From positions 1 to 64,000 of the forward strand of contig JAEPNP010000004.1 of the NCBI GenBank assembly GCA_017643395.1: a stretch of 64,000 nucleotides of DNA, in the 5' to 3' direction. The position numbers and the translations under genes are program-made. Under the pieces are notes generated by a model. The model had not been told where the DNA came from, did no database searches, and worked only from the letters and a program-made list of their open reading frames with translations. Source of the stretch: Rhodothermales bacterium. GTDB taxonomy: Bacteria > Bacteroidota > Rhodothermia > Rhodothermales > UBA10348. Numbering within the stretch: position 1 is the stretch's first letter; each line of letters opens with the position of its first letter. Positions 39,101 through 58,926 of the stretch are shown here, in pieces.

Positions 39101-39379
39101 ATGCGTCTATGTCGCGTCACAGGAACGACGGTCGCCACGCGCAAGGCCGAGGCGTTTCGCACCAGCAAGCTGTTGATCGTGCAGCCCGTGGATCTGGACG
39201 GTTCCGATCTGCCTGAACGGGATAAGCTGGCGCTCGACCCCGGCTTCGGCGCCGGTGAGGGCGATGTCGTTCTGGTGGCCAAAGAAGGCGCGGTAGCCCG
39301 TCAGGTCACCGGCCAGGAGGATCTGCCGGCCAATCTGGTCGTGCTGGGCGTGGTCGACGCCTGGTCCGTGGACGAGTAG
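39101..39379 (+). CDS. EutN/CcmL-type microcompartment vertex protein (solitary)
   Basis: 92 residues matching the pentameric BMC-P vertex family: MRLCRVTGTTVATRKAEAF, SKLLIVQPVDLDG, ALDPGFGAGEGDVVLVAKEG, ARQVTGQEDLPANL, VVLGVVDAWSV. In carboxysomes and metabolosomes these proteins close the corners of the shell. No hexameric BMC-H gene or signature enzyme is present in the window, so this is a solitary copy. The short gap to the antitoxin gene (divergent) leaves room for a shared promoter only. Confidence 0.9.
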   Translation: MRLCRVTGTTVATRKAEAFRTSKLLIVQPVDLDGSDLPERDKLALDPGFGAGEGDVVLVAKEGAVARQVTGQEDLPANLVVLGVVDAWSVDE

Positions 39380-56786: not shown

Positions 56787-57827
56787 CTACATGTCTTCCC
56801 AGTACTCCTCCGGCATATCCTGCGCCAGCGCCAAAGCACCCTCTGCCCCCGCATACAACGGATCGTCGATGGGCCGGATCTTGAACGCACCGAACTCCTT
56901 GAGCTCCTCGGCGAGCGCATCGGGCAGGCCGCGGATCTGGCTGCCGCCACCGGCGAGGAAGACGTTTTGCTTGACCTCTTCCTGGAAATCGGGCTCGTAA
57001 CGGGCGATGAGGTCCATGGTGGCCTCAGCCAGCACAGGCACGATGCCCTCGCACACGGCGCGCACGTCATTGGTCACGTCCAGCGCGGTCGAAACACCAC
57101 CGATCGGCACCTTGACCTTCACGCGTTTGGTATTGCCGCCGACGAAGCCGTACTCCTCCTTGAAGGACCGCACCATCACCTCGCTGAATGAAGCGGTGGG
57201 GTGGTGCTCGTTGAGTCGGTCAAGCAGCTGCTGGTCCAGGTAGTCGCCAGCCACGGTAATCGTGCGCTGGTCTTCCTCGCCCGGCATGGTGCCGTGCATG
57301 ATGCAGAAGTCCGCGGTGCCGGCCCCGATGTCGATGATCAGTGCGTTGTTCAGCGTTCCCAGGCCATAGGCCACAGCGAAGGGCTCCGACACCACCATGA
57401 GCGAGTCTGCATACTCCTTGACGGCATTCCGGATGGCGAGTTTGTTCACGCGCAGGGCTTCAGCCGGCACGCCCACCGCGGCGTAGATCTCGGTGGCCTT
57501 GCCGGGATTGACCTGTTCGATGAGATGGTGCACGAGCGCGCGCACGGCCTCTTCGTCGCGCTGGGTTCCGTCACGGATGACGCCCTGCTCGAGGGGCCGC
57601 GTAAGCCGGAGCGAAAGGCGATTTTCAAGCGCATCAGAGCCGAAGAGCACATCGCGCCCCAGCATCTTCTTGGCCACAAAATCCTTGGGCCAACCCACGT
57701 AGCTCTGCACCCACTCGCGCTTGCCGTTGCTGGCAACGATGGCGCTTCGTGACGTGCCCAGGTCGATCCCTATGTAGAGGGTGCGGTCCGCCGTACCGTT
57801 GGTCGACGTCTTCTTCTTGGCAGGCAT
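56787..57827 (-). CDS. MamK-like bacterial actin
   Basis: 346-residue actin-fold ATPase. The phosphate-1 motif IGIDLGTSRSAIVAS begins near residue 19, phosphate-2 IIDIGAGTADFC lies near 162-175, and the adenosine motif LAGGGSQIRGLPDAL near 288-302. From memory of the family, it follows MamK rather than MreB along its length: VGWPKDFVAKKMLGRDVLFG, VVSEPFAVAYGLGTLNNALI, GTMPGEEDQRTITVAG and the terminal MPEEYW. MamK filaments position magnetosomes, but homologues occur in non-magnetotactic bacteria. No magnetosome gene is nearby. It lies 43 bases after a cell-wall amidase gene, which hints at an envelope or cell-organisation role. Confidence 0.82.
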   Translation of the reverse strand: MPAKKKTSTNGTADRTLYIGIDLGTSRSAIVASNGKREWVQSYVGWPKDFVAKKMLGRDVLFGSDALENRLSLRLTRPLEQGVIRDGTQRDEEAVRALVHHLIEQVNPGKATEIYAAVGVPAEALRVNKLAIRNAVKEYADSLMVVSEPFAVAYGLGTLNNALIIDIGAGTADFCIMHGTMPGEEDQRTITVAGDYLDQQLLDRLNEHHPTASFSEVMVRSFKEEYGFVGGNTKRVKVKVPIGGVSTALDVTNDVRAVCEGIVPVLAEATMDLIARYEPDFQEEVKQNVFLAGGGSQIRGLPDALAEELKEFGAFKIRPIDDPLYAGAEGALALAQDMPEEYWEDM

Positions 57828-57870: not shown

Positions 57871-58926
57871 TTACTGAGGGGATGGAGTTTGGGATTGGCC
57901 TCGAGCCACGAGGTAGTTGAGGATGCCTTCCTCGAGGTACACGGCCAGTTGCTCGCGATGGGCATCGGACCGCAGCCGATCCACCTGCCCCTGATTGCTG
58001 AGCACGGAAATCTCCGCAAGCACACTTGGAGCATCGGAGCCCAACAGCACCACAAACGGACCGGGCTTCACGCCCCAGTCCTGGATGCCGGGCTGCTCGA
58101 CGCGGTTGCCGGCGACCATCGATTGCTGAATGGCCACGGCCAGACGGCGCGACTCCTGCAGCTTCACCGTGCTGGACAGGCGGCGAATCATGTCGTTGAA
58201 GTCTGCCAGGGTATAGTCCGACCCCTGGTTCTCAGCCTCTGCAAGCCGCAGCAGGGCCCGTTCCGTATTCGCGCCGAAGTAGTAGGTCTCCAGCGCATTG
58301 GCCCGGCGGTCCGGAAAGCTGTTGGCATGGATGGAGACAAAGAGGTCGGTCGGCTGCCGGTTGGCGAACTCGACGCGCTCCCGAAGCGTCAGCGTGGAGT
58401 CACCCTGCCTGGTCATGAGCACGGCATAGCCGCGCGCCTCAAGCCGCCGGGCCAGTCGAAGGCCGACGTCCAGCGTGACGTCCTTCTCCAGCACATCCGA
58501 CAGTCCCACGGCACCGGGGTCTTCCCCGCCGTGCCCGGGGTCAATGACGATGGTGCGTACCTGCAGGTCGAACAGGTCCACGATCGGTGTGGGGCCGGCC
58601 AGCAGTCTCCGGAACTCGGCCGGATCCACGGCCGGTACATCTTCCTGGCCGGTGTCGATCACGGGCAGGTTTGCCCCAAGAATGGTATTCGCCCCTAGCG
58701 CGGGAGCGGCCGGCGCTTCCGCCTCGCCTCCGCCGGGCAGAAACTGGATCCCGACGACGACCAGAAGCGCAACCACCAGTGTGGCAACACTCCACACGGT
58801 AGCCTGTCGCCTGCGCCGTTCGGCGTCCGCCACACCGCCGTCCTTGATCTTGCGGTTGTCCTCGTAGACGCCGCGCAGCATCGAGGCTCTGGCCTTCTTG
58901 GATGGCTCAAACCGATCCGTTTCCAC
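57871..58926 (-). CDS. N-acetylmuramoyl-L-alanine amidase, membrane-anchored
   Basis: 351 residues. A cytoplasmic N terminus of about 40 residues precedes one TM segment (VWSVATLVVALLVVVGIQFL), then a linker and an Amidase_3 domain. Zinc and catalytic residues are visible in TIVIDPGHGGEDPGAVG, LEKDVTLDVGL, LFVSIHANSFPDRRANALET and PSVLAEISVLSNQGQ. It cleaves the peptide side chain from muramic acid in cell separation or turnover. Anchoring by an N-terminal TM, in place of a cleaved signal, is notable. It is upstream of and close to the MamK-like gene. Confidence 0.92.
   Translation of the reverse strand: METDRFEPSKKARASMLRGVYEDNRKIKDGGVADAERRRRQATVWSVATLVVALLVVVGIQFLPGGGEAEAPAAPALGANTILGANLPVIDTGQEDVPAVDPAEFRRLLAGPTPIVDLFDLQVRTIVIDPGHGGEDPGAVGLSDVLEKDVTLDVGLRLARRLEARGYAVLMTRQGDSTLTLRERVEFANRQPTDLFVSIHANSFPDRRANALETYYFGANTERALLRLAEAENQGSDYTLADFNDMIRRLSSTVKLQESRRLAVAIQQSMVAGNRVEQPGIQDWGVKPGPFVVLLGSDAPSVLAEISVLSNQGQVDRLRSDAHREQLAVYLEEGILNYLVARGQSQTPSPQ

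Follow-up and report, generated by a model that had tools for sequence, protein, structure and literature searches.

Actin-like proteins of the MamK type are represented in the Protein Data Bank by the solved structures 5ljv and 5ljw, and homologues in bacteria that are not magnetotactic have already been described (PMC7449369). One such family is BeeR, a three-stranded actin from the Verrucomicrobiota (PDB code 8r2n) whose function is unknown (PMC11929497). In the magnetotactic Nitrospirota, mamK is adjoined by man1, a gene whose function is unstudied (PMC8353452, PMC9376291), and chain assembly in RS-1 involves MamK, Mad28, and coiled-coil Mad proteins, MamJ playing no part (PMC12748827). 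Control of a cell-wall hydrolase by an actin isologue is known from the MreBH-LytE and Mbl-FtsEX-CwlO systems of Bacillus subtilis; the authors report an interaction of MreBH with the hydrolase LytE (PMC3817527).

The locus described here comes from a Rhodothermales bacterium (GenBank assembly GCA_017643395.1, contig JAEPNP010000004.1). The stretch of DNA that was analyzed, positions 1 to 64,000 of the contig, is hereafter referred to as the window. The coordinates of the relevant features are provided in Table 1.

Table 1. Positions, within the window, of the actin gene, the amidase gene, their proposed parts, and one unlinked gene.
Feature	Position	Strand	Basis
MamK-family actin-like protein, 346 aa	56787..57827	-	ORF; NCBIfam MamK over cut-off; phmmer to MamK, BeeR, and MreB structures; tree
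Conserved actin C-terminus, MPEEYWEDM	56790..56816	-	Alignment with 19 relatives
N-acetylmuramoyl-L-alanine amidase (Amidase_3), putatively membrane-anchored, 351 aa; gene immediately precedes the actin gene	57871..58926	-	Pfam PF01520, 155.4 bits; conserved neighbor
Proposed actin-binding tail in the predicted cytosolic N-terminus of the amidase, residues 13-27, RASMLRGVYEDNRKI	58846..58890	-	Conserved across six phyla, flanks not; recurs in unrelated MamK-family partners
Predicted transmembrane helix of the amidase, residues ~42-63, RRRR just before	58738..58803	-	Sequence; AlphaFold2 also models a helix at 32-62 in the read-through fusion of a congener
Amidase_3 catalytic domain, residues 126-336, motifs GHGG, EKDV, SIHAN, LAEI	57919..58551	-	Pfam range; motifs present
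Microcompartment vertex protein	39101..39379	+	

The first-pass annotation had described an actin fold that follows MamK rather than MreB or ParM and ends in PEEYW, and each part of that description holds. The open reading frame is intact on the minus strand, the plus-strand reading of the same interval is interrupted, and the PEEYW sequence lies inside the conserved C-terminus. The protein scores 405.3 bits against the NCBIfam MamK model (NF040964), a narrow pass of the curated cut-off of 400 bits, just below which several of its orthologues fall. Against the MreB model it reaches 78.8 bits (cut-off 293). The closest solved structures, as identified with phmmer, are those of MamK (5ljw, 285.6 bits), BeeR (8r2n, 177.4 bits), and MreB (~57 bits); no match to ParM was listed. 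The window actin shares with MamK ~40% sequence identity, the NCBIfam subfamily, the actin fold, and the C-terminal region. In the phylogenetic tree it is positioned within the MamK family and outside of MreB, and the genome encodes a separate MreB (G000:C1:1654078). Like BeeR, it is a relative of MamK outside the magnetotactic bacteria, but its score against the NCBIfam BeeR model is 222.9 bits (cut-off 530), and only ~16 residues precede the fold, in place of the disordered N-terminal extension of 30-50 residues that characterizes the BeeR type. The N-terminus, MPAKKKTSTNG, displays by sequence no obvious membrane-binding helix.

The amidase gene is separated from the actin start by 43 bp on the same strand. 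Its product clears the PF01520 cut-off of 27 bits by a wide margin (155.4 bits), and its GHGG, EKDV, SIHAN, and LAEI motifs correspond to the zinc ligands and the catalytic glutamate of the Amidase_3 family. The catalytic domain and its motifs are shared with AmiA, AmiB, and AmiC, but the window amidase, at 75-88 bits, misses the curated cut-offs of those families (equivalog or exception, 400-700 bits), and it differs from them in carrying a putative cytosolic tail and a membrane span. Indeed, each of the complete amidases collected in this study can be divided into a cytosolic stretch and a catalytic domain that are joined by one membrane span and a variable linker, which suggests a single-pass topology with a cytosolic N-terminus. 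The earlier call of a membrane-anchored wall amidase just upstream of the actin is upheld, with the span placed near residues 42-63.

Sixty related genomes from the order to which the window belongs were surveyed, and those with matches of ~387 bits or more were taken as actin carriers. The actin is found in 19 of the 60 with a patchy distribution over families. In all of them the gene immediately upstream of the actin, in the same orientation, is the amidase, which often overlaps the actin start. Eight carriers (L033, L034, L038, L039, L040, L042, L049, and L051, with L038 being a short contig) keep the amidase without the other window neighbors tested, namely EF-G, HolB, PSP1, GroES, TsaB, AccD, and PurF. 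Among the 60 relatives, amidases matching beyond the catalytic domain at >200 bits occur only in carriers. An amidase with this N-terminus was not found in the 41 relatives lacking the actin, where matches score at most 125 bits and cover little or nothing beyond the catalytic domain. One genome resembles an exception: in G005, which is 70% complete and in which no actin was found, a contig edge holds a 28-residue fragment of the amidase N-terminus.

The same arrangement extends well beyond the order. A scan of GTDB genomes yielded 80 loci, 23 of which have the amidase directly upstream of the actin. They derive from Desulfobulbaceae and other "Deltaproteobacteria" MAGs, two Gammaproteobacteria MAGs, Nitrospirota, Schekmanbacteria, Acidobacteriota, and a Rhodothermales MAG. 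In a later sample the amidase was present at all 29 Acidobacteriota loci and at 2 of the 17 from the Thermodesulfobacteriota, and the linkage, whose conservation in relatives had been left as a check by the first-pass annotation, spans six phyla in all. The catalytic motifs of the amidase are kept across phyla. Most of the genomes sampled are MAGs, and the genes were called mechanically. In a tree of 68 rows the amidase-linked actins form one clade (SH-aLRT 97) that also includes L098, a row for which linkage cannot be judged because its contig starts shortly before the actin. The Rhodothermales MAG (L086) falls among the rows of the window's order with moderate support. Amidase and actin distances are correlated (Mantel r 0.88, 0 of 2000 permutations), to which shared ancestry contributes. 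A search of the literature, with most subscription papers and preprints lying outside its coverage, found no paper joining MamK, an actin-like protein, and an N-acetylmuramoyl-L-alanine amidase.

There are no mam genes among the annotated neighbors of the window actin, in agreement with the first-pass annotation, and no match to MamQ exceeds the cut-off genome-wide. The actin passes the NCBIfam MamK cut-off, as would a MamK left behind after the loss of its magnetosome genes. It differs from MamK proper, however, in having a wall amidase for a partner, and in the tree it sits in the separate amidase-linked clade, apart from MamK of magnetotactic bacteria. Given this grouping, the absence of MamQ over the cut-off, and a pair kept over six phyla, the probability that the locus is the remnant of a magnetosome cluster is very small indeed.

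It had also been proposed that the actin may be an element of envelope or division organization, or else may position another organelle. The first half of this proposal is strongly supported, because neither of the two refuting outcomes named with it was obtained: the tree keeps the actin outside of MreB, and the amidase linkage is conserved. The second half is without support, because the gene for the microcompartment protein is not linked to the actin, whose constant partner is a wall enzyme. The vertex protein is indeed alone in the window, as had been noted, but the genome has further shell genes, with two BMC shell genes located at G000:C1:1979643 and 1979929. Positioning of an organelle containing this protein was rejected as an explanation for the actin, given that the vertex gene is unlinked and the shell genes map to other parts of the genome.

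The N-terminal tail of the window amidase (KARASMLRGVYEDNRKI) can be written as ML-RG-VY-ED-N-RK-I, and its flanks are unconserved. A rough consensus for the amidase tails is [KR]xx[IML]L[RKQE]x[VA][YV]x[ED]N. Within the order, the mean identity over 16 residues amounts to 0.50, and relative to the Desulfobulbaceae, Gammaproteobacteria, and Nitrospirota to 0.47, whereas for the 48 residues that follow it is only 0.07-0.13; it drops to 0.25 versus the Acidobacteriota. The alignment was anchored by a pattern requiring the asparagine, so that its count of that residue is not independent, and the asparagine is evident in the raw N-termini as well. The amidase from L042, and the Planctomycetota partners L165 and L180 from the loci considered below, each contain two tandem copies of the tail, an arrangement that would favor multivalent attachment to a filament.

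We consider it probable that the actin filament gathers and positions the cell-wall amidase by way of this short tail. The actin and amidase genes would constitute one functional module. The MamK-type actin would polymerize in the cytoplasm, and the amidase would cross the inner membrane once, its short tail projecting into the cytosol and its catalytic domain held in the periplasm on a flexible linker. The tail, as an amphipathic helix (two hydrophobic residues, two variable positions, two hydrophobic residues, two variable positions, asparagine, two variable positions, and a hydrophobic residue), would bind the filament, and the amidase so held would cut the wall along the filament or at its end for daughter-cell separation or local wall remodeling. 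By analogy, the pair would work like the actin-hydrolase systems of B. subtilis without being a member of them; those actins are of the MreB type, and a two-gene unit with a hydrolase bearing its own cytosolic tail is not described in PMC3817527. Such a mechanism would offer a concrete role for some MamK-like actins of bacteria not known as magnetotactic, and would pair an actin with a wall hydrolase within a two-gene unit kept over six phyla.

Control might also run in the opposite direction, with the amidase mainly tethering the actin to the membrane, or sensing the wall for it, while the filament places something else. The actin may need a membrane anchor in view of its N-terminus, and the partner in other clades is a coiled-coil or small membrane protein rather than an enzyme. 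This arrangement is nonetheless decidedly unlikely, for the catalytic motifs are kept across phyla, and no third conserved gene that might encode a cargo was found around the pair where the other synteny is lost.

In order to join both proteins in one chain, AlphaFold2 was run on in-frame read-through fusions of partner and actin, a device that implies no claim about the organism. The fusion of a Planctomycetota partner tail with its actin adopts the actin fold, with the MamK filament 5ljv as the nearest solved structure (Z = 43.6, rmsd 1.4 over 325 residues), and its tail is helical with a pLDDT of only 72-76. In the amidase-actin fusion from a congener of the window (L036), the tail helix has a pLDDT of 85-89. 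The confidence in these helices could come from helical propensity alone, and the models inform the fold, not docking.

MamK-family loci without the amidase were encountered in Planctomycetota, Omnitrophota, Nitrospirota and Thermodesulfobacteriota (with some MAGs reported to be magnetotactic), Zetaproteobacteria, and Beggiatoa. The gene directly upstream of the actin in these loci, although of unrelated sequence, often ends in the same ungapped pattern, which is found here at the opposite end of the protein. Examples of such C-terminal tails are LM-SE-IF-QA-N-LR-L (L129), LL-AN-IF-RQ-N-LA-I (L117), FL-KN-IV-KE-N-ID-L (L120), ML-KG-IM-DD-N-LK-L (L140), and ML-KR-LV-ED-N-LS-L (L158). The pattern was formulated as [LIMFV][LMFIV]..[VILA][YFVIML]..N..[LIMV], within 60 residues of either protein end. 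It was written after inspection of the first set, in which it matches 28 of 48 non-amidase partners versus 6 of 643 other genes, the rate for shuffled partners being 0.7%. It was then frozen for a sample of Planctomycetota, largely held out in that only one of the 30 loci (L187) had already been seen (as L112), and there it matches 22 of 30 upstream partners versus 1 of 369 control ORFs. In a third sample, composed mostly of amidase loci, some of which overlap earlier ones or are near copies, the full pattern is present in 18 of 46 (controls, 1 of 516) and its core in 30 of 46, four of the core matches holding a proline and thus possibly being due to chance. Sequences within the sets are related, and the counts are therefore not independent. 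With a profile built from the window's order alone, the upstream gene is the top-ranking one at 24 of the 48 non-amidase loci, where 6.0 would be expected. A PSSM derived from the amidase tails is only moderately selective by score, and at a threshold of at least 10 bits detects 14 of 48 non-amidase partners versus 8 of 642 controls. With a better ORF search the tail is also observed in partners L107, L109, L121, L123, L141, and L203-L206.

As for conservation of the tail for reasons of RNA or gene overlap, that explanation was rejected because the distance to the actin start differs: more than 1 kb in the amidases, but just before it elsewhere.

The pattern is absent from MamJ-type upstream genes, including the MamJ-like genes of the Magnetospirillum and Telmatospirillum loci, from archaeal ones, and from several in the Thermodesulfobacteriota. 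BeeR-like actins, such as L195 of the Planctomycetota (BeeR 412 bits, MamK 242), are preceded by partners with another conserved terminal sequence (RRIPIDDIQGIIDMLNE and similar ones), a difference that a matching of tail to actin would predict. The form R-I-P-[IF]-D-[DN]-[IL]-x-x-I-[IV]-D, or one close to it, was noted in L192, L193, L195, L196, and L198, all from Planctomycetota. The MamJ-type and archaeal partners lack the BeeR-type tail as well. This distribution suggests that tail type and actin type go together.

A short amphipathic segment beside a membrane span could simply lie on the membrane or self-associate, with actin and amidase sharing an operon for envelope growth and making no contact; linkage in an operon is by itself no proof of contact. 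A generic amphipathic helix would, however, need neither a fixed register nor a strongly conserved asparagine. Such a role is improbable when considered together with the recurrence of the tail at the opposite end of unrelated proteins sharing a position upstream of a MamK-family actin, and with the different tail at the BeeR-like actins.

If the tail is an actin-binding element, the same kind of tail would be the adaptor on the partners of other MamK-family actins, and a common actin-binding tail is predicted across much of the family. We lean, by a small degree, toward a still broader proposal: MamK-family actins would form a general bacterial positioning system, with cargo hooked to the filament by otherwise unrelated upstream-encoded proteins whose short tails all keep one register, namely two pairs of hydrophobic residues and then the conserved asparagine. 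The cargo would be the amidase in the present clade and magnetosomes, via Man1, in the magnetotactic Nitrospirota. Man1 is likewise encoded beside mamK, but has no amidase domain. The upstream protein of L120 (nDJH8bin6), which on the basis of gene order would be Man1, ends in FLKNIVKENIDLM. The tail also makes Man1 a candidate MamK adaptor in the deep-branching magnetotactic bacteria, which lack MamJ.

In six loci from the Nitrospirota and Thermodesulfobacteriota (L120, L124, L132, L133, L212, and L213), several of them from MAGs reported to be magnetotactic, the gene directly upstream of mamK ends in the tail pattern. This gene is probably man1 or its like, and a candidate for the MamK adaptor.

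Other partners have features of their own. The archaeal MamK-family actins, mostly from Poseidoniales (L143, L146-L148, and L151-L153), are preceded by a conserved protein of ~350 aa with zinc ribbon-like CPRCGG and CSxCxHEW motifs. The upstream genes in L139, L211, L214, and L215, some of which lie between two actin copies, terminate in GSHYLPxxVVRN or a close variant. The MamK family is present in 114 of 294 sampled Planctomycetota genomes. The genome of L130 (G426) encodes three MamK-type actins scoring >390 bits together with one weaker, BeeR-like actin of 231 bits.
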